From positions 1 to 23,792 of IMG/VR virus record IMGVR_UViG_3300024999_000398: DNA of 23,792 nucleotides; one strand, 5' to 3'. Made by a program: the position numbers and the translations under genes. The notes under the pieces are model-generated. The model was not told where the DNA came from and did no database searches. It saw only the letters and a list, made by a program, of their open reading frames with translations. This document shows positions 1-17,145 of the stretch, in pieces (the first letter of the stretch is position 1; the number at the start of each line of letters is the position of its first letter). Source of the stretch: a virus.

Positions 1-2
1 AT

Positions 3-137
3 TGGGCATTCAAGGGTATAATTGAACAAATCAAATGTGAACACGAATTTAGAGAAACAACATTTTATGATGAAAAAGGATTATCATGTAAAAAATGTCT
101 CTATACAATTATCAAACCAAAAAATAAAAAACAATAA
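3..137 (+). CDS. C-terminal end of a small putative zinc-binding protein (partial)
   Basis: An open frame enters from the left edge and ends at TAA (135-137), giving 44 visible codons. The visible part holds C..H (CEH) and then CKKC, a spacing that could bind one zinc ion, followed by a Lys/Asn-rich tail. The start lies outside the window. I do not recognise the family. The frame is short, so the evidence is the open frame to the edge plus the paired cysteines. Confidence 0.5.
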   Translation, partial: WAFKGIIEQIKCEHEFRETTFYDEKGLSCKKCLYTIIKPKNKKQ

Positions 138-244
138 AATGAAATTTTTATTGCTATTTTATAACTTTTAAGATTAAATAAATTATGAAAAATATATTAA
201 ATAAAATTGGAATGTTTTTGACCAAAAAACTTCATTTATTGTTA

Positions 245-276
245 GTTATCACACATTTTAAAAAAGACAGTAGATA
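245..276 (+). repeat. Direct repeat copy 1, GTTATCACACATTTTAAAA + ACAGTAGA
   Basis: It begins GTTATCACACATTTTAAAA and continues into GACAGTAGATAT. A second copy at 410-440 has the same first 19 bases and then GAACAGTAGAATAT. The two copies bracket the structured element at 282-353. An inverted copy lies at 1879-1897 and a bare 10-mer core at 981-990. Confidence 0.8.
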
Positions 277-281
277 TAATA

Positions 282-353
282 AAAAGGGGGATCACCGTAT
301 GGTCAGTGGATTGGATAAATCCTCACCATTTCCCCGGAATATTTCCCCCTTTT
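282..353 (+). ncRNA. Candidate structured RNA / riboswitch-like element
   Basis: This 72-nt stretch folds into nested helices. The outer stem is a perfect 10 bp (282-291 AAAAGGGGGA with 344-353 TCCCCCTTTT). Inside are CCG/CGG (295-297 with 335-337), ATGGT/ACCAT (299-303 with 325-329) and GGATT/AATCC (308-312 with 318-322, loop GGATA). It is much richer in G and C than its surroundings and lies between the direct repeats at 245 and 410. An open frame crosses it, but the translation looks non-coding. It matches no RNA family I can name. It could be a leader element for the gene at 473, a packaging or origin hairpin, or a small RNA ending in a U-rich tail. Confidence 0.45.
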
Positions 354-409
354 ACTTTACAAAGGTATGTAAAATTATATTAAAAACCAAATTATTTTTA
401 TATAAACAA

Positions 410-440
410 GTTATCACACATTTTAAAAGAACAGTAGAAT
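410..440 (+). repeat. Direct repeat copy 2, GTTATCACACATTTTAAAA + ACAGTAGA
   Basis: This is the second copy of the repeat at 245-276, with the first 19 bases identical. It lies just upstream of the likely start of the next gene at 473. Confidence 0.8.
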
Positions 441-472
441 ATTTTAAAAAAACATCAAATAAATTACGACTT

Positions 473-979
473 ATGTTTATTAAGACATTAAAGAAAGTTT
501 TAGAAAATCAATTACAAACATACTATCTTGAATTCAATTTTATGACTCTTGATCATCTTAATTATTATAAATTACCAATAATATGTTATCTTGTAGATGA
601 AGACGAATCTATTAATCTTTACAATAATATTTATGAACAATTAAAAATAAGTTTTCATCTTGACGGTGGTTGTAAAAGACAGAAAATAATGTCAAAAAAA
701 CATTTGAAACGGACAGAAGAGATAATAAGAAACACACAAGGGATTCAAGGGTACAAGACCTTAAAATTAGAACTTGAAAGAATGAAAATCATAAACAGTA
801 AAGTATATTATGAAATAGAGGACAAAAATGAGGACATAAAAGAATTTAGAATAAATATAGTTAAAACTGGTGGGATACCATTTCAAAATATTAAAGACCA
901 ATTTGTTATTAAAATTGACAAATCAATACTTGAGGACAATTATCTAGATCCTGATAAGGATTTAATCGGACAAAAATAA
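473..979 (+). CDS. Hypothetical protein, 168 aa
   Basis: I chose the ATG at 473 (MFIKTLKK). The frame is open back to an ATG at 185, but that extension would translate both direct repeats and the hairpin element at 282-353, and its composition is not protein-like. The body is charged and soluble: a stretch with YLVDEDESINLYNNIYEQL, a central Lys-rich helix, a predicted coiled segment (TLKLELERMKIINSKVYYEIEDKNEDIKE is about that region) and a C-terminal beta-like part with GGIPFQNIKDQFVIKID. I do not recognise the family. The next small frame follows in the same reading frame, 3 nt after the TAA. Confidence 0.5.
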   Translation: MFIKTLKKVLENQLQTYYLEFNFMTLDHLNYYKLPIICYLVDEDESINLYNNIYEQLKISFHLDGGCKRQKIMSKKHLKRTEEIIRNTQGIQGYKTLKLELERMKIINSKVYYEIEDKNEDIKEFRINIVKTGGIPFQNIKDQFVIKIDKSILEDNYLDPDKDLIGQK

Positions 980-982
980 AGT

Positions 983-1108
983 GTGATAACAATTCTTTAT
1001 TTTGGGACAGTTATATTATTGACACTTTCACTTACAATAGTATTTTTGGTTTGGTATTTAAATAAAAAATTAATAGATAAAGATTTTAGTATTATACAAA
1101 TTAAATAA
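983..1108 (+). CDS. Possible small membrane peptide, 41 aa, GTG start
   Basis: It starts at a GTG 3 nt after the preceding stop and in the same frame. About 20 hydrophobic residues (ILYFGTVILLTLSLTIVFLVW) form one likely transmembrane helix, followed by a short charged cytoplasmic tail (YLNKKLIDKDF). The GTG lies inside a copy of the 10-mer GTGTGATAAC, so the start is uncertain. It may be a real small membrane protein translationally coupled to the gene before it, or chance. Confidence 0.3.
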   Translation: MITILYFGTVILLTLSLTIVFLVWYLNKKLIDKDFSIIQIK

Positions 1109-1110
1109 AT

Positions 1111-1140
1111 TTGATTTTAGAATATAAAGTTATATCTTTG
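1111..1140 (+). promoter_or_regulatory. Bacteroidota-type promoter, plus strand
   Basis: TTG (1111-1113), 19 nt, then TATCTTTG (1133-1140). The ATG of the next gene begins 4 nt later at 1145, so the transcript would be leaderless or nearly so. Confidence 0.7.
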
Positions 1141-1144
1141 TGGT

Positions 1145-1342
1145 ATGACTTACAAACCACCAAATTATTTTGAACTTTGGAAGAAATCATTTGAAAAAGA
1201 TACTGGAGGACTAATACCAGAAGAAAAAATGAATGAGTATATTCATTATTTTAATTCCAGAGTAAATGAACACATTTTGACTACACTTGAGACAATTGGT
1301 AAAGAACTCAAAGAAATAAATAAAACCTTAAAATCTAGGTGA
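1145..1342 (+). CDS. Hypothetical small protein, 65 aa
   Basis: The protein is charged and mostly helical (MTYKPPNYFELWKKSF...). Its C-terminal third (RVNEHILTTLETIGKELKEINKTLKS) has a heptad-like pattern and could form a short coiled coil. The start is supported by a host-type promoter ending 4 nt upstream, which suggests a leaderless message. Its 3' end overlaps the end of a convergent 56-aa frame on the minus strand. I do not recognise the family. Confidence 0.6.
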   Translation: MTYKPPNYFELWKKSFEKDTGGLIPEEKMNEYIHYFNSRVNEHILTTLETIGKELKEINKTLKSR

Positions 1343-1498
1343 ATCTAATAGTATTCTAAAATCATAATTATCTGGTTTTTGATGTTCTACTGTTAATCTT
1401 AAAACTGGTACAAAAAACAGATAATAAGTTATGATTTTCTTTCCAGGTACAGAGTTAGGATAAGTTACATATTTTATTTTCTTTTTTAAAATAATCAT
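1328..1498 (-). CDS. Hypothetical small protein, 56 aa
   Basis: The frame begins at an ATG (1498-1496) and reads MIILKKKIKYVTYPNSV..., ending DFRILLDSPRF. The pattern of alternating hydrophobic and charged residues (KKIITYYLFFVPVLRLTVEHQ) looks like beta strands. An ATATTTAT box lies about 63 nt upstream (1561-1570), as for other minus-strand genes here. It overlaps the end of the plus-strand gene at 1145 by 15 nt. The family is unknown and the shortness limits confidence. Confidence 0.45.
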   Translation of the reverse strand: MIILKKKIKYVTYPNSVPGKKIITYYLFFVPVLRLTVEHQKPDNYDFRILLDSPRF

Positions 1499-1560
1499 AA
1501 AAAATCTTAATAAGTTTTATTAATTTTGGTGAATATGATATTGAATGTATTTTCATATAC

Positions 1561-1570
1561 TTATAAATAT
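1561..1570 (-). promoter_or_regulatory. ATATTTAT late-type box
   Basis: The minus strand reads ATATTTATAA, the box found before other minus-strand genes. Read on the plus strand it is TTATAAATAT, close to the T4 late promoter core TATAAATA, so it could instead serve the plus-strand gene at 1585. Confidence 0.4.
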
Positions 1571-1585
1571 CCCGACTGACAAAAA
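1571..1585 (+). repeat. Direct repeat CCCGAYTGACAAAAA, copy 1
   Basis: CCCGACTGACAAAAA lies immediately before the ATG at 1585. A second copy with one change (CCCGATTGACAAAAA) lies at 1861-1875, just after the end of the same gene, so the gene sits between the repeats. Confidence 0.6.
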
Positions 1586-1854
1586 TGAATCAACTTGACA
1601 TTTATTACAAATTTCTGGAAAGTATAAGGAATAAATTCAGAAATAATATTAAACCAGTTAACCCCGACTATTCGTCTGAATCTGAACTACTAAAAAAATC
1701 AACTATATTTAATCCAATAACAAAACTACATAAACAAAAACCAACACAGTTATTTGCGATTATTGCGATTATTATTGCGATTATTGTTAACAGATATGAA
1801 ATATACAAATTTTTCATTGAACTAAAAGAATTGATATTGAATTTCTGTAAATAA
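1585..1854 (+). CDS. Small membrane protein, 89 aa
   Basis: The N-terminal 55 residues are polar. They are followed by one clear transmembrane helix (QLFAIIAIIIAIIVNRY) at about residues 53-70 and a short amphipathic C-terminus (FFIELKELILNFC). This suggests a single-pass inner-membrane protein. The coding DNA for the helix contains a tandem run of ATTGCGATT units. The gene is flanked by CCCGAYTGACAAAAA repeats on both sides and stands alone. The function is unknown; phage superinfection-exclusion or lysis-related proteins are possible but nothing here shows that. Confidence 0.55.
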   Translation: MNQLDIYYKFLESIRNKFRNNIKPVNPDYSSESELLKKSTIFNPITKLHKQKPTQLFAIIAIIIAIIVNRYEIYKFFIELKELILNFCK

Positions 1855-1860
1855 TATCAT

Positions 1861-1875
1861 CCCGATTGACAAAAA
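1861..1875 (+). repeat. Direct repeat CCCGAYTGACAAAAA, copy 2
   Basis: CCCGATTGACAAAAA lies just after the membrane-protein gene and matches copy 1 at 1571-1585 with one transition. Confidence 0.6.
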
Positions 1876-1878
1876 AGA

Positions 1879-1897
1879 TTTTAAAACGTGTGATAAC
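1879..1897 (-). repeat. Inverted copy of the GTTATCACAC repeat
   Basis: On the minus strand this reads GTTATCACACGTTTTAAAA, one base different from the first 19 bases of the repeats at 245 and 410. It directly precedes the inverted-repeat arm at 1899. Confidence 0.7.
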
Positions 1898-1898
1898 A

Positions 1899-1920
1899 AA
1901 GGGTTTATGAAATTGGGGTT
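1899..1920 (+). repeat. Left arm of a 22-nt inverted repeat around the tRNA
   Basis: The arm (core GGGTTTATGAAATTGGGG) is the reverse complement of 2123-2144 except for one base. The two arms enclose the promoter and the tRNA-like gene at 1966-2077. The last two bases are the start of the TTGAC promoter box. Confidence 0.8.
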
Positions 1921-1949
1921 GACAATTTCATTTTAAACAGTTATCTTTG
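1919..1949 (+). promoter_or_regulatory. Bacteroidota-type promoter for the tRNA
   Basis: TTGAC begins at 1919. Twenty nt after TTG comes TATCTTTG (1942-1949). Transcription should begin about 10 nt before the tRNA acceptor stem at 1966. Confidence 0.75.
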
Positions 1950-1965
1950 TGAAATAAAAAAATAT

Positions 1966-2077
1966 TTTCCTGTAGTTTAACCGGATAAAACACCTCTTTG
2001 TTTAATTTTAATAATATCCTTTTTAAAAGATACTACGAGACTGAGAGGAAGATGTCGGTTCAAATCCGTCCAGGAAA
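1966..2077 (+). tRNA. tRNA with a 39-nt insertion in the anticodon loop; isotype undetermined
   Basis: All standard arms are present. The acceptor is TTTCCTG/CAGGAAA (1966-1972 with 2071-2077, 7 bp). The D stem is GTTT/AAAC (1975-1978 with 1988-1991) with loop AACCGGATA. The anticodon stem is CCTCT/AGAGG (1993-1997 with 2044-2048). The T arm is GTCGG-TTCAAAT-CCGTC with one T-T mismatch. The anticodon loop spans 1998-2043, 46 nt instead of 7, so about 39 nt are extra. The extra segment holds a weak hairpin (TATC..GATA, 2016-2033). It is far too short for a group I intron. CCA is not encoded. I cannot place the splice or junction points, so the anticodon cannot be read. It may be a decayed gene, or its insert may be removed by an unknown route. 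Confidence 0.7.
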
Positions 2078-2122
2078 ATATTTTTTTACATTATGTTTTC
2101 ATTAATATCATTTGAATTTTTA

Positions 2123-2144
2123 AACCCCAACTTCATAAACCCTT
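2123..2144 (-). repeat. Right arm of the 22-nt inverted repeat around the tRNA
   Basis: This is the reverse complement of 1899-1920 with one difference (minus strand reads GAAGTTGGGG where the left arm reads GAAATTGGGG). It lies downstream of a minus-strand promoter at 2172-2202. Confidence 0.8.
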
Positions 2145-2171
2145 AAAACGTTATTTTTTTAATATATAATA

Positions 2172-2202
2172 CAAAGATAAACATAATATTTTAAAAAGTC
2201 AA
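2172..2202 (-). promoter_or_regulatory. Bacteroidota-type promoter, minus strand, no obvious gene
   Basis: On the minus strand TTGAC (TTG 2202-2200), 20 nt, then TATCTTTG (2179-2172). It points at the tRNA from the opposite side, so its transcript would run antisense through the right arm and the tRNA. Only a 16-codon frame lies close downstream. It could make an antisense RNA. Confidence 0.6.
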
Positions 2203-2208
2203 TAGCAT

Positions 2209-2592
2209 TCACTTTGAAAAATAATATCCATCAACGATATTAAAAGTATTTTCTATTCTTTCTTTTGATATTCCAGATAATATCCTTGGGCCCATAAATG
2301 AATTAATCAAAACATAAGTATTATCTTCATCTTTTATCATTAAAAAAGAATGATTAATATTTAATAAAGGATGATTTATTATAACAATTCCCCCATATTG
2401 AAATAACTTATTTAGGTTATTCCCATTTTTAAGATTTAATTTTTTTAAATATTCTTCTTTATTTTTATCAACATTGATTAATAATGGAACTTCTATTTGT
2501 TTATAAACACAACAATTAATTAATGCAACATTAAAACTATTATCATTTTCATATTGTCCTGTAAAAGGATAAAATAAATATTTACTAGTCAT
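2209..2592 (-). CDS. Hypothetical protein, 127 aa
   Basis: The protein reads MTSKYLFYPFTGQYENDNSF..., mixed alpha/beta, with alternating strands (YGGIVIINHPLLNINHSFLMIKDEDNTYVLINSF) in its middle. No signal peptide or membrane helix is visible. An ATATTTAT box ends 8 nt before the ATG, matching the late-gene pattern of its minus-strand neighbours. It is the last gene of the block that starts at 4063 or earlier, with its own box. The family is not recognised. Its place after a virion protein suggests a late function, by inference only. Confidence 0.6.
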   Translation of the reverse strand: MTSKYLFYPFTGQYENDNSFNVALINCCVYKQIEVPLLINVDKNKEEYLKKLNLKNGNNLNKLFQYGGIVIINHPLLNINHSFLMIKDEDNTYVLINSFMGPRILSGISKERIENTFNIVDGYYFSK

Positions 2593-2599
2593 ATTATTT

Positions 2600-2608
2600 A
2601 TAAATATC
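2600..2608 (-). promoter_or_regulatory. ATATTTAT late-type box before 2592
   Basis: The minus strand reads GATATTTATAAATA, 8 nt before the ATG at 2592. It also contains TATAAATA, the T4 late promoter core, on the coding strand. Confidence 0.5.
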
Positions 2609-2626
2609 TATTTTTTGATAAAAAAC

Positions 2627-4063
2627 TTAATTTAAATTTTCAACAACAAAAAAATTTAAATTCTCATTAATCGTTACTTCAGTATTATTACTTTTTAATT
2701 TTAATTGAATAAAATATTCATGTTCCAATAAAAACGATGTGTCAATGGTTAAATAATTATTATTGAATGTTCTATGAACATCGGTCCATGAAATTATATC
2801 AATTTGTTCCCGGCCCTGTTTTATATACAAACGGTATTGTAAACCGCCAATTACAACCTCATCTTCTGGATTAAATTCTTTTTTGGCAATAACAAATAAT
2901 TTTTTAATATCACCCCTAAGAATTCGTTCTCCACGAAGAATTCCATAGAAAGAAAAACCAAATTTATCTGGTTCTTCACTATTATTTCCAAAATTATAAT
3001 ATTCTTTATTATCTTTTAAAATAAAATTCATTTCTATGGCTGGAAGGGAAATTTTGTCAATTGTAATTCCACTCCATACATCTAGCCATTGAGTTAATGT
3101 ATAATTATTCATTGTATTGGCAGAATTGGGTACTAATACATCAACATAATAAACTCCTTTAGTTAATTGATTAACATTTGTGCCAGTTATTGCACTGAAA
3201 ATATTATCATCGTAATCTCTTATAGTTACTTGTGAAGGAATTGAATCTAAATTAGTGGGGTCTTTTCCTTTATTTGTATATAAAAATAATCTATTAGTTT
3301 TATCAATAAAAAACCTGTTTCTATTATCATTTATTGTATCTCCACTCCATATTGTTTCCAAATAAGGTTCATAAATTGTATTTGTATGACGGCTAAAAAA
3401 ACCAATTGTATTAATTGTAGTTGAGGTGAGAGTTTCAAAATTTCCTGACAAGGATAGTCCCAGGCCATTATTTGCTGTCCCCCCGCTTATCCATTTTTCA
3501 ACAATTTCTGTACAATCAATTTCCAAATTTTCATTTCCTAATGAAAAGTGTTGTGAACCAATTAAATCTGTAGGTGTATTTCCAGAATAAATTCCAGATT
3601 GTAACCATTTAGTTGTTTTATTTCTATCAAACCAATTAGGTGAATCTTCTGTTATTTTTTGCGTAAGTCCAAAATCTGCATTTTTATTTGCAAAATCATA
3701 TTCCCAGCCAATCCCAGAATTCCACGTTTCTCCTGTTGGAACTTGCCATAAAATTAATGGTATGTCATTTGCTCTTGTTCTACCTTTTACTAATTCGTTT
3801 CCTAATAATCTTTCATCAAATGAAGAACTATTCGTCATCTTTATTTTATGAGAAATAACATTTCCACTCATTATTTCTTTATCAGAATACTTTTTTCTTA
3901 TTTTTGACGTATCAAATCTAAATATAAATCTGGTATATTTAGTTGATGCTGTAACTGACCCCCCACCATAATATAGTTCATAAACTGGATTCAAACTAAT
4001 ATTAGTTAGTTTATTTCTTTGAATTGCTGTTGAAGCACTAAAAAATGTTTTATAAATTCCCAT
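2627..4063 (-). CDS. Structural protein with DNRLRE-like region, 478 aa, probably tail or baseplate-associated
   Basis: The sequence is beta-rich with few Cys, typical of virion proteins. Residues about 42-56 (YTRFIFRFDTSKI) and 180-241 (DCTEIVEKWISGGTANNGLGLSLSG ... FFSRHTNTIYEPYLE is that region) resemble the DNRLRE beta-sandwich domain, known from surface and adhesin-like proteins: W..G..NNGL.L.., then a Ser/Arg strand and PYLE near its end. The C-terminal half (about 250-478) is made of beta strands ending in a domain with FLLEHEYFIQLKLKSNNTEVTI. It starts MGIYKTFFSASTAIQ, 17 nt after an ATATTTAT box, and lies in the minus-strand late block. A role in the tail or baseplate, perhaps host binding, is inferred. 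Confidence 0.65.
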   Translation of the reverse strand: MGIYKTFFSASTAIQRNKLTNISLNPVYELYYGGGSVTASTKYTRFIFRFDTSKIRKKYSDKEIMSGNVISHKIKMTNSSSFDERLLGNELVKGRTRANDIPLILWQVPTGETWNSGIGWEYDFANKNADFGLTQKITEDSPNWFDRNKTTKWLQSGIYSGNTPTDLIGSQHFSLGNENLEIDCTEIVEKWISGGTANNGLGLSLSGNFETLTSTTINTIGFFSRHTNTIYEPYLETIWSGDTINDNRNRFFIDKTNRLFLYTNKGKDPTNLDSIPSQVTIRDYDDNIFSAITGTNVNQLTKGVYYVDVLVPNSANTMNNYTLTQWLDVWSGITIDKISLPAIEMNFILKDNKEYYNFGNNSEEPDKFGFSFYGILRGERILRGDIKKLFVIAKKEFNPEDEVVIGGLQYRLYIKQGREQIDIISWTDVHRTFNNNYLTIDTSFLLEHEYFIQLKLKSNNTEVTINENLNFFVVENLN

Positions 4064-4080
4064 TGATTATATTTTTATTA

Positions 4081-4089
4081 ATAAATATC
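4081..4089 (-). promoter_or_regulatory. ATATTTAT late-type box before 4063
   Basis: The minus strand reads GATATTTATTAATAA, 17 nt before the ATG of the DNRLRE-like protein and directly after the stop of the upstream gene. Confidence 0.5.
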
Positions 4090-4649
4090 TAAAAATTAAA
4101 TAAAGGTATGCCTAATTTATTGCTAAACTCTTCTATTTTGAATAATCTACTATTAATATCATTAACTATTTCATTTAATTTTTGTTCTGGTATTTTTTCT
4201 CCCCCCTTTAAAATAATTTCATGTGTTTTTGAAAATTCTTTTTCTTTCATTTTACCTCCCTCTAAAAATACTCGATATAATAAATCATCCATATTTTTTG
4301 GTTTAATAATATAAAATCTATTTTTTATCAAAAATATATAAAAAATGTTATCACGAATTTTATAAGAATAATACATAAATTCTGATATTATATTAAACTG
4401 GGGAAAAGTATAAATGGTATCACCAACATATGAATCAATATTTTTATTATATGATTCCAGTCTCATTTCAATTCTATCTTTTATGGTTTGATGAGGATTA
4501 ATATCTGGACTATGTATAATTTTGTATTCTTTTAAAAAAGGAATTCTCTCTTTAAAATAATCAACTGTTAAATATTTTGGATTAATATTTTCATCAATAA
4601 TATTTTCAATTAATCTTTTAAACTGGGATTCTGTTATTAATATATTCAT
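4089..4649 (-). CDS. ITESQ-tagged hypothetical protein, 186 aa
   Basis: Residues 1-20 read MNILITESQFKRLIENIIDE, the same tag found on three other proteins here (starts at 5464, 12218 and off the right edge). The tag should form an amphipathic helix and ends in a hydrophobic-x-Glu site (IDE), like the sites cut by T4-type prohead proteases. The body is unlike the other tagged proteins: mixed alpha/beta with FYIFLIKNRFYIIKPKNMDDLLYRVFLEGGKMKE in the centre and a Lys/Glu-rich helical C-terminus. It starts 1 nt after the stop of the 4651 gene, so it is in an operon with 4651 and 4907. Its body belongs to no family I know. Packaging into the head is a hypothesis. Confidence 0.65.
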   Translation of the reverse strand: MNILITESQFKRLIENIIDENINPKYLTVDYFKERIPFLKEYKIIHSPDINPHQTIKDRIEMRLESYNKNIDSYVGDTIYTFPQFNIISEFMYYSYKIRDNIFYIFLIKNRFYIIKPKNMDDLLYRVFLEGGKMKEKEFSKTHEIILKGGEKIPEQKLNEIVNDINSRLFKIEEFSNKLGIPLFNF

Positions 4650-4650
4650 A

Positions 4651-4929
4651 TTATTTTATTATCTTCTTATTTAATAATTCATTAAAAACGATTAAACTTA
4701 AATCATTAACTGTTTTTATTTCTTCTGCCACATCGTCCCATATATGAATATTTAATATTTTTTCAATTTGATAATATAATTCATAAATATTAAGAAAATC
4801 ACCTTTTATTATATTCTTTATATTTAATTCTTTAAATAAAATATCTTTTAAAACTATATAACATTCATTATAAGTTAATTTATGATTATTTTTAAGTTTT
4901 AATAATTTATTTTTGTATTGCTTTTTCAT
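4651..4929 (-). CDS. Hypothetical protein, 92 aa
   Basis: I chose the ATG at 4929 (MKKQYKNKLLKLKNNHK), which overlaps the end of the upstream gene by 23 nt. A start 12 codons earlier would overlap it more. The protein is helical: a basic N-terminus, then YNECYIVLKDILFKELN and a helix with IWDDVAEEIKTVNDLSLIVFNELL. The pattern DDVAEEIKTVNDLSLIV resembles the phosphopantetheine-helix region of acyl-carrier-like folds, but I see no conserved Ser in the expected DSL motif, so I treat that as chance. It is the middle gene of a three-gene operon with tagged proteins on both sides. Confidence 0.5.
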   Translation of the reverse strand: MKKQYKNKLLKLKNNHKLTYNECYIVLKDILFKELNIKNIIKGDFLNIYELYYQIEKILNIHIWDDVAEEIKTVNDLSLIVFNELLNKKIIK

Positions 4930-5464
4930 AATCTTCCTTTTTAATAACAAAACCAATATTGCCAACTAATCTATCTTTTTCACTAAATAATAGAAAATCT
5001 TTACCAAATTTATCTATAAATCTTTTATATGCAACTATTCTACTATCCGAATCTGCCGTAAAATATATAACTCTTACATCATATTTATTAATGTATTCAT
5101 TTAAATAATGAAAAACTGTTCTTAAAATAGTTAATGATTCTTTATTCTGTGTTAATGGTTTTACATCTATTTTATTATTTTCATAAGTTCCAAATCTTAT
5201 AAAATATACTGGTTTATTTTCATTATATTGTTGTATTGTTTTTATTGTTGTTTCCCCCACTTTACTATCAAAATTATCAACATATGCTTCAATAGCATAA
5301 TTATTTCCAGATATTGTTGAAAATTTAATAATTAATTGTTTTTCATCACTTTTTTCTATATTAACATTTTTCAATTTTGCTGGTTCATTAATATCATCAT
5401 AAACTTCATTTATAATATTTTCAATAACTCGTTTTAATTGACTTTCTGTGATTACTATTTTCAT
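4907..5464 (-). CDS. ITESQ-tagged protein, 185 aa, possible acetyltransferase-like body
   Basis: The start is the ATG at 5464 because it gives the tag MKIVITESQLKRVIENIINE and sits 8 nt after an ATATTTAT box. The longer open frame runs through intergenic promoters. After the tag, the body is alpha/beta: a strand-rich part (QLIIKFSTISGNNYAIEAYV), then FIRFGTYENN, and a helix-strand unit YDVRVIYFTADSDSRIVAYKRFIDKFGKDF. That last unit looks like the late part of a GNAT-type fold, where a residue string before an aromatic R/Y..F helix is common, but the signature is weak. It leads an operon with 4651 and 4089. Confidence 0.65.
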   Translation of the reverse strand: MKIVITESQLKRVIENIINEVYDDINEPAKLKNVNIEKSDEKQLIIKFSTISGNNYAIEAYVDNFDSKVGETTIKTIQQYNENKPVYFIRFGTYENNKIDVKPLTQNKESLTILRTVFHYLNEYINKYDVRVIYFTADSDSRIVAYKRFIDKFGKDFLLFSEKDRLVGNIGFVIKKEDYEKAIQK

Positions 5465-5472
5465 ATTTTTAT

Positions 5473-5480
5473 ATAAATAT
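5473..5480 (-). promoter_or_regulatory. ATATTTAT late-type box before 5464
   Basis: The minus strand reads AAATATTTATATAA, 8 nt before the ATG of the tagged protein. It forms a divergent control region with the plus-strand promoter at 5510. Confidence 0.5.
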
Positions 5481-5509
5481 TTACTTATATTAAAAAAATT
5501 GATAAAATA

Positions 5510-5541
5510 TTTGTTTATTTCAATTATTTTACTTACCTTTG
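5510..5541 (+). promoter_or_regulatory. Bacteroidota-type promoter for 5566
   Basis: TTTG (5510-5513), exactly 20 nt, then TACCTTTG (5534-5541) inside the wider shared string TTTTACTTACCTTTGTATT. It drives the 5566-6733 gene group. Confidence 0.8.
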
Positions 5542-5565
5542 TATTATTAATAAATAAAAAATAGC

Positions 5566-5847
5566 ATGATAGGAAAAAAATTAAGTCCGATTTTATCTGA
5601 AATAGAGGACACTCTTTGGGAATTTGAACTAAATTCAAGAATAAAACCAGAATATACAATAGATGGATTTAGAGCAGGAATTAAAATATTTATGTCCGTT
5701 TTAATGGATAAAATCTGGGAATTGCAATCCGATGAAAAAATGGATATTCAAGATAGAATAAACATGGTTGAAAAGGTTGGTCAAGATGTCAGAAAATTAG
5801 TTAAAACTTATACGGATATAGATACTCACGATTTATACAAAAAATGA
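5566..5847 (+). CDS. Hypothetical helical protein, 93 aa
   Basis: The protein is all-helical with regularly spaced charged and hydrophobic residues (IDGFRAGIKIFMSVLMDKIWELQ, then MVEKVGQDVRKLVKTYTDIDTHDLY). It begins 25 nt after the -7 box, at an ATG in an A-rich context. Its stop overlaps the start of the HAD gene (ATGA), so the two are translationally coupled. The sequence looks conserved rather than random, but I know no function. Confidence 0.65.
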   Translation: MIGKKLSPILSEIEDTLWEFELNSRIKPEYTIDGFRAGIKIFMSVLMDKIWELQSDEKMDIQDRINMVEKVGQDVRKLVKTYTDIDTHDLYKK

Positions 5848-6410
5848 AAAAAGAAATTATAATATTTTTGGATATTGATGGGGTTATTGCAACAAATAAT
5901 TCCATTTATGATTTATGGAAAGAATACATGGGTGAAAAACCAACCACCAAGTTCAATGAAATATTAAAGAGAAAAAATTTACCGTTCATTAATACGTCTA
6001 TGAAATATTGGCCCTTTGATAGAAATTGTATTTCAAACATCCATAAATTACAATTATATTTCCACGAACAGGGATATATTGTTAATTATGTTATTTCAAG
6101 TACGTGGAGAATAGGAAGAACAATTGAAGAATTAAAAGATTTATTCAATATCAAAGGTCTATATTTAACAAATATTATTGGAAAAACAGACAGAGTTAGA
6201 TTACATGACAGCCCCAGGGGGAAGGAAATTTTACAATGGTTAAAAGATAATGATAAAGAAAATTCAATTTACATGGTTATTGATGATGATATTAATTATG
6301 ATATTATTCAATACATTGATAAAAAACATTGTATAAAAACCGAATTTAAAAATGGATTTAATAATAAATTATTAAAAGAAACTATTGAAAAAATTGAAAA
6401 ATTATTATGA
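5844..6410 (+). CDS. HAD-superfamily phosphatase of the RNA-repair (Swiss Army Knife) type, 188 aa
   Basis: Motif I is FLDIDGV with the nucleophile Asp10 and acid Asp12. Motif II is VISSTWR at about residues 83-89 with Ser85/Ser86. The late acidic motif is VIDDDI at about 145-150. The string RGKEILQWL (125-133) is typical of the small cap-less HAD proteins fused to or partnered with RNA repair ligases (HAD_SAK class). The expected activity is removal of a phosphate, plausibly a 3' or 2',3'-cyclic end of broken RNA before ligation. It lies in an operon with 5566 and 6407 (4-nt overlaps on both sides), and the genome also encodes an Rnl1-type RNA ligase at 21067. The substrate is inferred. Confidence 0.8.
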   Translation: MKKEIIIFLDIDGVIATNNSIYDLWKEYMGEKPTTKFNEILKRKNLPFINTSMKYWPFDRNCISNIHKLQLYFHEQGYIVNYVISSTWRIGRTIEELKDLFNIKGLYLTNIIGKTDRVRLHDSPRGKEILQWLKDNDKENSIYMVIDDDINYDIIQYIDKKHCIKTEFKNGFNNKLLKETIEKIEKLL

Positions 6411-6733
6411 GATTACCAAAAAAATGTAAAGAGGAAATCAAAAGTTATGTAGATTCAAAAGGATTTGATATTATTGGAGGAAAATTCTCGTTATTTGAAG
6501 ATGATAAAATTTGCAGGGGGTATTATATTGATTCACAGAAAGGTATAAAAAGAAAATTTGCAGATAGGTTTGGACTTGATTATGAATGGGTTACTTTAGA
6601 TAAATGGTTTTTAGAATTTATTGGTCATATATTAAGAAAATATAAAATTAATAATATTGAATTTGCGCATAATGATAGATATACTTCTACAGAATGGAAA
6701 TTTAATAATATAAAAAAAATTATACCAGAGTGA
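6407..6733 (+). CDS. Hypothetical protein, 108 aa, paralogue of the gene at 8439
   Basis: The C-terminal half (WFLEFIGHILRKYKINNIEF...STEWKFNNIKKII) aligns with the gene at 8439 (YFLEYIGHFLRKYKIETVNF...SKSWKFKEIKESI). The N-termini also correspond (CKEEIKSYV / CRKEIIDYL). It overlaps the HAD stop by 4 nt. Its last codons and TGA lie inside the 5' end of the split tRNA-Leu, so its 3' end and the tRNA share sequence. The two paralogues flank the TnpB-split tRNA region. No function is known. Confidence 0.65.
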   Translation: MRLPKKCKEEIKSYVDSKGFDIIGGKFSLFEDDKICRGYYIDSQKGIKRKFADRFGLDYEWVTLDKWFLEFIGHILRKYKINNIEFAHNDRYTSTEWKFNNIKKIIPE

Positions 6734-6756
6734 TGGAAACGGTAGACATAATGGAC
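6724..6756 (+). tRNA. tRNA-Leu(UAA), 5' half (interrupted)
   Basis: This holds acceptor strand ACCAGAG (6724-6730), D stem ATG/CAT (6733-6735 with 6747-6749), anticodon stem ATGGA (6751-6755) and loop base C32 (6756). It pairs with the 3' half at 7983-8036: six of seven acceptor pairs are Watson-Crick, but the first pair is A-C. Anticodon-stem pair 31-39 is also A-C. Joining the halves gives loop C-TTA-AAA, that is anticodon TAA, and an 87-nt type II tRNA. The TnpB element lies between positions 32 and 33. Confidence 0.85.
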
Positions 6757-6900
6757 GTGAACTACTTCTTGCCAAGGGGCAAAGAAGATTCGGAAAATAA
6801 GCATAAATGATTATGATTACCAACCAAGTTGATACCCAACTTATGAATATTAATAGCAGCATTATGGTCTCTCGTAGTTTCAAACCCACAAGTAGTACAC
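6757..6900 (-). ncRNA. Predicted omega RNA (reRNA) region at the right end of tnpB
   Basis: TnpB guide RNAs are known to come from the 3' end of tnpB and the right end, with the guide taken from flanking DNA. Here the right end has a hairpin (CTTCTTTGCC with GGCAAGAAG, about 6765-6786). The guide would begin at 6756 and read leftward as GTCCATTATGTCTACCG, the complement of the tRNA-Leu anticodon stem and D arm. The start coordinate is only an estimate. Confidence 0.45.
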
Positions 6901-7907
6901 TTATGAGAGCGTTCATAGAGGGTTTTAGGTTCGAGAGTACCACAATTACTGCATTTTATTGTTGTGCCTTTTGGATTTACTGCTATACAATAAGTACCAG
7001 CATCTTCCGCTTTGTACTTCAGCATAAAAATAAATGTACTCCAAGAGGCATCAGAAATATGTTTTTGAAGATTATATTTATTATCTTCAATCATTTGTTT
7101 AATTTTCAAATCTTCATAAGCAATAAGGTCAAAAGTATTTACCAACCTATAAGAAAGTTTATGCTGAAAATGATTTCTCTGTCTTGCAATTTTTCTATGA
7201 AGATTGGTAAGTTGTTTTTTAATTTTTTTACTTTTCCCTTTAGAGTATTTGCTCTGAATTTCTTTAAGTTTATCTTCAGATTGTTTCAAATATTTTGGAT
7301 TGGCAATTTCTTCTCCATTGGAAAGTACTGCAAAATTAGTAAGTCCCAAATCAATCCCAATTACATTAGTAATAACTTTCTTTTCTGGAATAGGATTAGA
7401 AAGTTTACAAGAGAAAATAACATACCATTGATTGCCTTCTCTCTTAATTGTGCAAGTTTTTATTTCACTATTCAAAGGAATTTGCCTGTGAAGTTTAATT
7501 TTTATAGATCCTATTTTAGAAAGTCTAACTTTTTTATTAATAATATCAAATCCACTTTGAGGATAAGTAAAACTATCATATCTATCAAAACTTTTATAAC
7601 GAGGAAAACCAGATTTTTCTCCTTTTTGTTTTATTCTGCGAAAGAAATTTTGATAAGCCAAATCAACCCGTTTAATTACATTCTGCAATACTTGGCTATG
7701 AATTTTATTATATTCAGGGAATTCATCTTTAATCGATGGCAATTCATTTTGTTGTTCATTATAAGAAATAGATTTTTGAGCAATACGATATGCTTCTCTG
7801 CGATGCTCCAATGCTGTATTATAGAGTTTGAAGCAAGAAAACAAAGTATCTTGCAAAACTTTTTTCTGTTTGGGGGTAGGATAAATTCTATATTTATAAG
7901 CTCTCAT
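6762..7907 (-). CDS. tnpB: TnpB RNA-guided endonuclease, 381 aa
   Basis: The start is the ATG at 7907 (MRAYKYRIYPTPKQKK, the usual TnpB N-terminus). A 9-codon upstream extension is not family-like. The N-terminal helix-turn-helix region is followed by the RuvC-like nuclease, whose three acidic residues are present: Asp in GIDLGLTNFAV, Glu in AYEDLKI, and Asp in TTRDHNAAINI. A zinc finger (CSNC...CTTC) sits between the last two, as expected. Length is normal, with no frameshift, so the protein is likely active. It cleaves DNA matching its guide next to a target-adjacent motif and helps the element persist or home. An ATATTTAT box lies 7 nt upstream of the start, so it may be expressed late. 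Confidence 0.93.
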   Translation of the reverse strand: MRAYKYRIYPTPKQKKVLQDTLFSCFKLYNTALEHRREAYRIAQKSISYNEQQNELPSIKDEFPEYNKIHSQVLQNVIKRVDLAYQNFFRRIKQKGEKSGFPRYKSFDRYDSFTYPQSGFDIINKKVRLSKIGSIKIKLHRQIPLNSEIKTCTIKREGNQWYVIFSCKLSNPIPEKKVITNVIGIDLGLTNFAVLSNGEEIANPKYLKQSEDKLKEIQSKYSKGKSKKIKKQLTNLHRKIARQRNHFQHKLSYRLVNTFDLIAYEDLKIKQMIEDNKYNLQKHISDASWSTFIFMLKYKAEDAGTYCIAVNPKGTTIKCSNCGTLEPKTLYERSHKCTTCGFETTRDHNAAINIHKLGINLVGNHNHLCLFSESSLPLGKK

Positions 7908-7914
7908 AATATAA

Positions 7915-7922
7915 ATAAATAT
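7915..7922 (-). promoter_or_regulatory. ATATTTAT box before tnpB
   Basis: The minus strand reads TATATTTATTTATATTATG, putting the box 7 nt before the ATG. It resembles the phage late box and may be element-borne or a chance match. Confidence 0.35.
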
Positions 7923-7982
7923 ACCAATAAACAAAATTTATTTCAATATCCTAAAAGGTGGGGGATTTATTTTGTAAATATT

Positions 7983-8036
7983 TTAAAACCCATTGAGCAT
8001 TATTTGCTCATGCAGGTTCGAACCCTGCCTCTGGCA
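7983..8036 (+). tRNA. tRNA-Leu(UAA), 3' half (interrupted)
   Basis: It runs from anticodon-loop base 33 (TTAAAA) through anticodon stem CCCAT, the long variable arm GAGC/GCTC (7995-7998 with 8006-8009), a perfect T arm GCAGG-TTCGAAC-CCTGC (8012-8028), acceptor CTCTGGC (8029-8035) and A73 (8036). CCA is not encoded in full (CA follows). The long variable arm and A73 agree with Leu. Confidence 0.88.
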
Positions 8037-8050
8037 CAAAAAATAAAATT

Positions 8051-8383
8051 ATGATTGTATATAGGGCAATGTCTAAAAAAGAAAGGGACTTAACTCTTGA
8101 ACATAATGATTTTGCCTTTGACAAAAAACGTAAATATTTTTCATTTAATCTGGATTGGATAAAATCAAGAGTAATGGATGGAAATTTTAATAATTCCAAA
8201 TTTAAAACAGAAAGATATAAGCATTTATTAAAATTTGAAATTGATGATGAATATATAATTCAGTTTAGTAAAGTGGGGGAAAAAGAATTAATGTTACACA
8301 AATGGAAATCAAACTTTCCCATTAAAAATATCAGTGAAATTGAAAATGGCCCCGTAACTCAACAGGATAGAGTACTGCCATAA
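8051..8383 (+). CDS. Hypothetical protein, 110 aa, possible ADP-ribosyltransferase-like fold
   Basis: It starts MIVYRAMSKKERDLT shortly after the tRNA-Leu 3' end. An early YRAM strand, then KYFSFNLDWIKSRVMDGNFNNSKF and HLLKFEIDDEYI, has the general pattern of small ADP-ribosyltransferase or RES-type folds (an Arg in the first strand, then a Ser strand). I cannot find a convincing catalytic Glu motif, so this is only a suggestion. The last 12 codons (NGPVTQQDRVLP) run through the 5' half of a second tRNA, so the original C-terminus may have been replaced by that sequence. Confidence 0.5.
   Translation: MIVYRAMSKKERDLTLEHNDFAFDKKRKYFSFNLDWIKSRVMDGNFNNSKFKTERYKHLLKFEIDDEYIIQFSKVGEKELMLHKWKSNFPIKNISEIENGPVTQQDRVLP
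8348..8380 (+). tRNA. 5' half of a second tRNA, cut at the anticodon loop
   Basis: Acceptor strand GGCCCCG (8348-8354), then TA, D stem ACTC/GAGT (8357-8360 with 8370-8373) with loop AACAGGATA, and the anticodon strand CTGCC (8375-8379). After that the sequence turns AT-rich, and no matching CGGGGCC or GGCAG is found in this window. The break lies at the 5' side of the anticodon loop, as in tRNA-Leu. The isotype cannot be read; the 5' half resembles tRNA-Arg genes. It overlaps the end of the 8051 gene. It may be a remnant or a split gene whose other half lies elsewhere. Confidence 0.65.
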
Positions 8384-8438
8384 ATAATTTCGATTCTGTT
8401 AAAATTTATAATTTAAAAATGGAATTATTTAAATAACT

Positions 8439-8762
8439 ATGACAGAAGAATGTAGAAAAGAAATTATAGATTATCTCACATTAAAAGATTGGATATTTCC
8501 TCATAGTGTTAAATTGTTTGGTGGTTCTAATACCTCTTTTTTAAGCACAATAATCATATACTCAAAAAATGGTGTAAAAAAAAATATGGAAAACAAATTT
8601 GAAAAAAATAAAATTAATATGTCAAAATATTTCTTAGAATATATTGGTCATTTTTTAAGAAAATATAAAATAGAAACTGTTAATTTTTTTCATAGCGAGC
8701 AGATTACTTATACATCAAAATCCTGGAAATTTAAAGAAATAAAAGAGTCTATTGTTTTATAA
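8439..8762 (+). CDS. Hypothetical protein, 107 aa, paralogue of the gene at 6407
   Basis: See the gene at 6407 for the shared segments (CRKEI, FLEYIGHFLRKYKI, SWKFKEIKE). This copy differs more in its first half (FPHSVKLFGGSNTSF). It converges on the DNA polymerase gene and overlaps the end of that gene by 14 nt. The start follows an AT-rich leader with no clear promoter. The function is unknown. Confidence 0.65.
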   Translation: MTEECRKEIIDYLTLKDWIFPHSVKLFGGSNTSFLSTIIIYSKNGVKKNMENKFEKNKINMSKYFLEYIGHFLRKYKIETVNFFHSEQITYTSKSWKFKEIKESIVL

Positions 8763-15993: not shown

Positions 15994-17145
15994 TTAAATA
16001 ACCTCTTTTTCAAATATGCGTTTATTATAATTTTTTTTTAACTGTTTTAAAATTTCCTTCATTTTTTCTTCAATATTTTCATCATACTTAATAATATATA
16101 AGGGAATATTATTATCTTTACAATAATTTTTTTTTATTTGATCTCGTTTTTTTATTTCTTTAAAGTTATTTATCCCGCCCCAATATTCTATTGGTTCATA
16201 ATGTTGAATACCATCAAATTCAATACAACCAATTTCTGGAATATAAAAATCAAATTTTAACGGCCACTTATATCTACAATAAATAAATATTTTTTGTCTT
16301 TCATATTTTATAATAATTTTATCTAATATTTTAAATATTTCTCTTTCTCCTCTAGATTCTCTGCAATATATACACCCACACCCACTTAAATGGGTGGTTG
16401 GTGTCTGTTCAAAAATTCCACATTTAGAACAAATTATCTCTACTTTAGTTTTAGCATTTATATAATTTACTTTAGAGTAATCATATTTATTACCATGTAT
16501 TTTAATTGCTTTTTTTATGAATTCTTCTGTATTACTATTATAATTCCCACTACAATATTTACACCCATTCCCTCTTAAATGTATATCTGGAGTTTGCTCG
16601 AATATGTGGTTTGCTTGACAAATAATCTTAATTTTTGTATTATTATTTACATACTCTGATAATGAATAATCATATTTATTATTATGAATTTTATTAGCCA
16701 TTTCTATAAATTTTTCTTTACCCAATATTTGTTTTATACTATTAGATTTATACCCACAAAATTTACACCCATTCCCGCTTAAATGTTTATCTGGAATTTG
16801 ATTAAAAATACCATGTTGTTTACAAATTATTTCTACTTTAGTTTTAGCATTTATATAATTTACTTTAGAGTAATCATATTTATTACCATGTATTTTAATT
16901 GCTTTTTTTATGAATTCTTCTGTATTACTATTCTTTTTTTCACCGCACGATTTCCTTCCACAAAATATGCAACCAGAGCCATTATTTATATGTGTTGCTG
17001 GAATTTGACTAAAATACCCATGTAATTTACAACCAATGATAACCTTAGTATAATAATTTATATATTTTACCTTAGAATAGTCATATCTATTTCCATGAAT
17101 TTTTTTTGCTTCTTTTATAAATTCTTCAGTTGTTTTTCTTCTCAT
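15994..17145 (-). CDS. Homing endonuclease, four DUF723-like repeats plus Vsr-like nuclease, 383 aa
   Basis: The first about 265 residues are four repeats of 60-75 residues, each with FI..A..IHG..YDYS...Y.N..TK..I.C..HG.F.Q.P..H....GC..C, where two paired cysteines likely bind zinc. The C-terminal domain has GEREIFKIL, KFDFYIPEIGCIEFDG.QHY, then KKRDQIKKNYC and LYIIKYDE, the pattern of the Vsr-like EDxHD homing endonucleases. Repeats 2 and 4 are encoded by a perfect 101-bp direct repeat. It would cut a phage gene lacking it and spread by repair. It overlaps a small RHH gene at its start. Confidence 0.85.
   Translation of the reverse strand: MRRKTTEEFIKEAKKIHGNRYDYSKVKYINYYTKVIIGCKLHGYFSQIPATHINNGSGCIFCGRKSCGEKKNSNTEEFIKKAIKIHGNKYDYSKVNYINAKTKVEIICKQHGIFNQIPDKHLSGNGCKFCGYKSNSIKQILGKEKFIEMANKIHNNKYDYSLSEYVNNNTKIKIICQANHIFEQTPDIHLRGNGCKYCSGNYNSNTEEFIKKAIKIHGNKYDYSKVNYINAKTKVEIICSKCGIFEQTPTTHLSGCGCIYCRESRGEREIFKILDKIIIKYERQKIFIYCRYKWPLKFDFYIPEIGCIEFDGIQHYEPIEYWGGINNFKEIKKRDQIKKNYCKDNNIPLYIIKYDENIEEKMKEILKQLKKNYNKRIFEKEVI
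16439..16539 (-). repeat. 101-bp perfect direct repeat, copy 1 (endonuclease repeat 4)
   Basis: Identical over all 101 bases to 16832-16932. It encodes part of NSNTEEFIKKAIKIHGNKYDYSKV... and shows a recent internal duplication or gene conversion. Confidence 0.9.
16832..16932 (-). repeat. 101-bp perfect direct repeat, copy 2 (endonuclease repeat 2)
   Basis: The identical partner of 16439-16539, while repeats 1 and 3 of the same protein have diverged. Confidence 0.9.

Follow-up and report, generated by a model that had tools for sequence, protein, structure and literature searches.

Group I introns of bacterial tRNA-Leu(UAA) genes interrupt the anticodon loop, and their homing endonucleases target the intact gene. 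Phage and plasmid integrases use tRNA genes as sites and rebuild the tRNA with a copy of their own. In bacteria, Meers et al. in 2023 reportedly found that guide-directed cleavage of uninterrupted alleles retains or spreads IS605 TnpB. The TnpB7 of Sulfolobus islandicus IS605 (SisTnpB) has an experimentally determined cognate target-adjacent motif (TAM), TTTAA, and its guide begins right after UUCAC (PMC11043419). IStrons are found mostly in protein genes, and those of group A end in TCAG (PMC4227781). A search of the open-access literature, with most subscription journals outside its scope, found no report of a TnpB inside a tRNA anticodon loop.

The stretch of DNA analysed here (the window, 23,792 nucleotides) is a 23.8-kb linear virus fragment encoding a family-B DNA polymerase, a baseplate-wedge protein, and a T4 Rnl1-type RNA ligase. 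A 1,226-bp TnpB element (6757-7982) splits its phage tRNA-Leu(UAA) gene between nucleotides 32 and 33 (Table 1). The best explanation, to which we assign a probability of about 0.72 as a joint account, is a TnpA-less IS200/IS605-type TnpB element in a phage tRNA-Leu(UAA) gene, the tRNA being dead and the guide aimed at uninterrupted alleles.

The element shares with the ISDra2-type and S. islandicus TnpB7 elements the TnpB domains and triad, the TTTAA TAM, and the succession of TTCAC and guide. As in IS200/IS605 TnpB elements without TnpA, the hairpin of the right end (RE) overlaps the tnpB stop codon; unlike them, it lies inside a tRNA anticodon loop and the hairpin of its left end (LE) is degraded. 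IStrons are also TnpB-bearing elements within a gene, but the window element has no group I intron, which rules out this identity, and its noncoding ends measure 75 nt and 5 nt. The group I introns of tRNA-Leu(UAA) are self-splicing and have a protein-coded specificity, whereas the insert of the window is at 32/33, has no ribozyme, and would be RNA-guided. A tRNA gene is used both here and in integrase-mediated integration, but here neither half is rebuilt and no integrase is involved. As a TnpA-less TnpB element it is canonical; its location is unusual.

Table 1. Features of the interrupted tRNA-Leu(UAA) locus (window coordinates)
Feature	Position	Strand	Basis
tRNA-Leu(UAA) 5' half, nt 1-32	6724..6756	+	ARAGORN intron mode, joined fold
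Predicted TnpB guide/target, 5'-GTCCATTATGTCTACCGTTT-3'	6737..6756	-	directly 3' of TTCAC, as in SisTnpB
Right end (RE), guide-RNA hairpin and terminal GTAGTTCAC (6757-6765)	6757..6815	-	RE ends of relatives; fold
tnpB, 381 aa	6762..7907	-	Pfam PF01385, PF07282, PF12323 above cut-off
Left end (LE), 75 nt, subterminal hairpin decayed	7908..7982	-	fold energy versus two relatives
TAM 5'-TTTAA-3'	7983..7987	-	sequence; LE boundary versus L004
tRNA-Leu(UAA) 3' half, nt 33-73	7983..8036	+	ARAGORN intron mode, joined fold

ARAGORN in normal mode makes zero tRNA calls in the window; in intron mode it calls a tRNA-Leu(taa) at 6724-8037 with an insert of 1226 bp after gene position 33, whereas none of 60 order-1 Markov shuffles of the window yields a tRNA call in that mode. 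Across the junction, the joined sequence can be aligned gaplessly with 50 viral sequences that share the core GGTAGACNNNATGGACTTAAA; in the alignment to intact viral tRNA-Leu(UAA) genes, the junction reads GGTAGACANNATGGAC and then TTAAAA. Because of this gapless alignment, the break can be placed exactly at nucleotides 32/33, which is where an earlier note on this DNA had put it. That note also held that joining the halves restores a full type II tRNA with anticodon TAA. The fold and the anticodon are indeed those of a type II tRNA-Leu, but two stem pairs are broken (A1·C72 and A31·C39). The 5' half comprises the acceptor 5' strand, the D arm, and the 5' strand of the anticodon stem; it overlaps the 3' end of an ORF (6407-6733) and has an identical copy in IMGVR 3300025012_000045. 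The 3' half, with identical copies in IMGVR 3300025012_000055 and 3300025030_000459, comprises the remaining anticodon loop, the variable arm, the T arm, the acceptor 3' strand, and A73. The uninterrupted allele would be GACATAATGGAC fused straight to TTAAAA. The earlier note had proposed seeking such an empty site in related phages, and none turned up in a close relative in IMG/VR, where queries with either tRNA half or with the joined junction matched only the same phage group. The case for insertion into a once-intact gene therefore rests on the tRNA match itself.

TnpB carries the full set of three IS605/Cas12f-type Pfam domains. Its RuvC triad (D186/E265/D347, aligned to ISDra2 TnpB 8bf8) is intact and the zinc-finger cysteines are at 319/322/337/340. 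Between this protein and its 73% relative, dN is 0.19 and dS is 1.34, the latter near saturation; judged by dN/dS in this comparison, TnpB is under purifying selection. Its stop codon lies within the RE terminus GTAGTTCAC, which is common to the window, to virus contigs L002 and L004, to Siminovitchia, and to a Methanosarcinaceae MAG. The TnpB relatives of Thermus phages (45-47%) were discarded as guides to the boundaries; their ends differ and the gene-adjacent stretch checked has no TTCAC. The guide-RNA hairpin of the RE (arms CTTC-TTTGCC...GGCAA-GAAG) still folds, with CTTC/GAAG in the window versus CCCC/GGGG in the sister element (L002), and this compensatory change in both arms suggests selection acting on the RE guide RNA. 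The fold of the LE is only −3.9 kcal/mol, versus −10.2 and −8.6 in two relatives. The decay of the LE hairpin, while the guide-RNA hairpin was kept with compensatory changes, suggests an element living without TnpA, in which TnpB and the guide RNA both appear intact. As the earlier note had remarked, the Y1 transposase is absent: neither the window nor any of four related virus contigs matches the TnpA profile (PF01797). A TnpA may lie outside the sequenced fragment. The weak LE hairpin weakens the claim of mobility by TnpA, not that of an IS200/IS605 origin, and on its sequence the element would be at most a TnpA-less member of this family.

The predicted guide, GTCCATTATGTCTACC, is antisense to tRNA-Leu from nucleotide 32 down to the D arm. 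This agrees with the earlier proposal of a guide complementary to the anticodon stem and D arm, since what follows TTCAC is antisense to the 5' half. The TTTAA flank, which had been put forward as a plausible target-adjacent motif, is present, and the TnpB of the Sulfolobus IS605 has this very sequence as its cognate TAM (PMC11043419). The insertion lies 3' of this T-rich TAM and, as indicated by the gapless joined site, without target-site duplication. Read on the + strand, the TAM is TTAAA, that is, U33 U34 A35 A36 A37 of tRNA-Leu. The reverse complement of U33-UAA-A37 (UUAAA) is TTTAA, and the presence of TTTAA at the anticodon loop, on the antisense strand, is near-universal among tRNA-Leu(UAA) genes. 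The element lands between nucleotides 32 and 33 because it inserts 3' of TTTAA on that strand. The precision is thus explained by the preference for a target motif, and dedicated recognition of tRNA is not needed. Moreover, TTTAA occurs 406 times in the window, counting both strands, and given so many sites a single insertion into a tRNA gene may be due to chance.

The match between guide and flank is not independent evidence of homing into tRNA genes, because any IS605 insertion yields such a match. The first 16 nucleotides of the guide, together with the TAM, are found exactly in the intact tRNA-Leu(UAA) genes of three viral contigs (L066, L069, and L086), and most other viral tRNA-Leu genes have one to three mismatches to them, at guide nucleotides 7-9; the search pattern itself fixed 13 of the 16 positions, so that this agreement is partly imposed. 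The guide of the sister haplotype is unrelated to that of the window and, outside its own contigs, matches only unrelated contigs. Apart from the phage itself, a search of IMG/VR for the RE followed by tRNA-Leu returned a single match, which lies within a protein gene (L034) and is put down to chance.

Among distinct intact viral tRNA-Leu genes, 30 of 33 have no mismatch in the acceptor and anticodon stems and the other three have one; nucleotide 39 is T in all 33 and C in the window. Since the joined tRNA-Leu has two stem mismatches and sister contigs lack the 5' half, it is probably dead rather than spliced. The earlier note had assumed a tRNA that would need restoring, but these observations indicate a dead gene, so that the puzzle probably dissolves. 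It was correct about the group I intron: the Rfam search of the window gave no match to group I or group II introns. The tRNA splicing endonuclease EndA (PF01974) is absent from the window and from related contigs, which counts against an intron of the archaeal/eukaryotic (BHB) type, and no RtcB was found. With 264 of the 408 Leu codons, TTA is the most frequent; this alone makes the loss of tRNA-Leu(UAA) surprising, and the loss might carry a cost.

Other contigs bear on the assembly of the locus. The 100-kb contig 3300025012_000045 equals window positions 1-7013 at 100% and thus provides an independent left junction. Its end at 7013 lies 127 bp beyond 6886, the final distinguishing position, and is what one would expect of two left arms meeting in a single k-mer path; therefore, two left arms exist. 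The right junction is found independently in 3300025012_000055 and 3300025030_000459, where tnpB, the 3' half of the tRNA, and the next ~3 kb are about 100% identical to the window. The RE and left flank of these two contigs differ from those of the window, and neither has the tRNA-Leu 5' half. Hence, among the contigs found, both halves occur together only in the window. That a complete tRNA-Leu spans both arms argues that the window preserves the original arrangement, the sisters having recombined within tnpB, or that the sisters were misjoined. In L002 and L003 the tnpB ORF is near-identical, but the RE and guide (window positions 6757-6886) have been exchanged, with a different guide-RNA hairpin and flank, as though an event of recombination inside tnpB had re-aimed the nuclease.

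Could the window itself be an assembly artefact, with the left arm of one phage joined to the right arm of another through common tnpB sequence? The stop of the 100-kb contig 127 bp past 6886 is the mark of a k-mer branch, and in two contigs a different left arm is joined to this TnpB and right arm. However, an arbitrary join would not yield a complete tRNA-Leu(UAA) from both flanks, and paralogous small ORFs flank the element (6407-6733 and 8439-8762, E 1e-15). The base composition is alike in the two arms and does not discriminate. We regard such a join as quite improbable. Even less credible, to the point of being very unlikely, is that the tRNA is still made, an intron of unknown kind being excised from the transcript and the halves sealed by the T4 Rnl1-type RNA ligase. 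The phage does encode this ligase (21067-22182), as well as a protein with a HAD RNA-repair domain (5844-6410), and a second tRNA, for Asn (1966-2078), has a 39-nt insert in its anticodon loop with all stems intact. Yet the ligase is of the ordinary T4 repair type, group I/II introns, EndA, and RtcB are all unfound, TnpB is antisense to tRNA-Leu, the joined halves have two mismatched stem pairs, and in two sister contigs the 3' half stands alone, with no 5' half.

Two further accounts concern what moves or maintains the element. It might be an ordinary transposable element moved by TnpA in trans, its TnpB having no homing role and the tRNA site being a matter of chance. The 406 TTTAA sites of the window and the abundance of TnpB homologues among phages (matches in 586 phage records) would fit, but the LE hairpin that TnpA needs is degraded and the Y1 transposase is missing from the window and its four related contigs; we take this account to be possible, if on the unlikely side. 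At the other extreme, the element could have been selected for tRNA-Leu(UAA), the universal TAM and the conserved D arm giving it targets in many phages. The TAM being the reverse complement of U33-UAA-A37, the exact guide matches in three viral genes and near matches in most others, and the guide hairpin kept while the LE decayed all point this way. Against it, the pattern search of IMG/VR gave one case only, random insertion is adequate, the observed mismatches are in the TAM-proximal part of the guide, and the guide of the sister haplotype is unrelated. Selection for this gene, in the manner of the intron-encoded homing endonucleases of tRNA anticodon loops, is doubtful. Equally doubtful is a reading in which this TnpB is an RNA-guided homing nuclease for which every tRNA-Leu(UAA) gene would be a licensed target, since its TAM corresponds, as reverse complement, to the invariant U33-UAA-A37; the anticodon loop would then serve as a docking site, and a phage could not mutate it and still keep the tRNA.

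In the preferred reading, that of a TnpA-less element in a dead tRNA gene, the element would have entered 3' of TTTAA on the antisense strand of tRNA-Leu(UAA), between nucleotides 32 and 33, destroying the gene. The original insertion would have needed TnpA, acting in trans or later lost, or recombination from another copy. The tRNA-Leu would be unspliced and decaying, and the phage presumably uses the host tRNA-Leu(UAA). If expressed, the guide RNA, antisense to the tRNA 5' half, could direct cuts in the uninterrupted tRNA-Leu alleles of co-infecting relatives, and repair of the cut allele from the occupied copy would let the element spread or persist. Homing by cutting uninterrupted tRNA-Leu genes is plausible, and we infer that retention or spread by such guide-directed cleavage is the likeliest present role of the element. 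Unrelated phages have no flanking homology for repair, which counts against homing between them.

The TnpB insertion would provide a simple reason for the loss of a phage tRNA. Should TnpB home into tRNA anticodon loops, the homing introns of the same genes would have an RNA-guided counterpart, and the locus would offer a testable case of a TnpA-less TnpB maintained by drive alone. If chance alone is at work, the locus is a further example of IS605 landing in a phage gene that is dispensable.

Neither tRNAs nor useful neighbors occur in the DNA polymerase relatives at 44% (L028-L031). The tRNA-Asn(GTT)-like gene of the window (plus strand, Rfam 50 bits) has an insert that starts directly after TTTAA in the loop. 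Its nucleotide 37 is T under every possible splice, which is unusual for tRNA-Asn, and the region has no blastn match among phage records. At 8349-8402 (plus strand), a tRNA 5' half, GCCCCGTAACTCAACAGGATAGAGTACTGCC, is followed by a T-arm remnant only; this is the third tRNA-like locus with a break in the anticodon region. Viral contigs L048, L072, and L084 contain tRNA-Leu(UAA) 5' fragments that stop shortly past the anticodon stem and resemble integration-site remnants. A second, divergent TnpB-like gene (25% identity) is present in 3300025012_000055 (89265-90520) and in 3300025012_000045 (50383-51638); in the former, this gene and a tRNA-Phe gene meet at their 3' ends, which is also where the homology between the two copies begins. 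The window also encodes an HNH/homing-type endonuclease (15994-17145, minus strand; PHROG 559, 9084, 7140), a separate, protein-coded homing candidate. The RNA ligase and the HAD_SAK_2 RNA-repair domain protein, both on the plus strand, fit a phage that answers anticodon nucleases.
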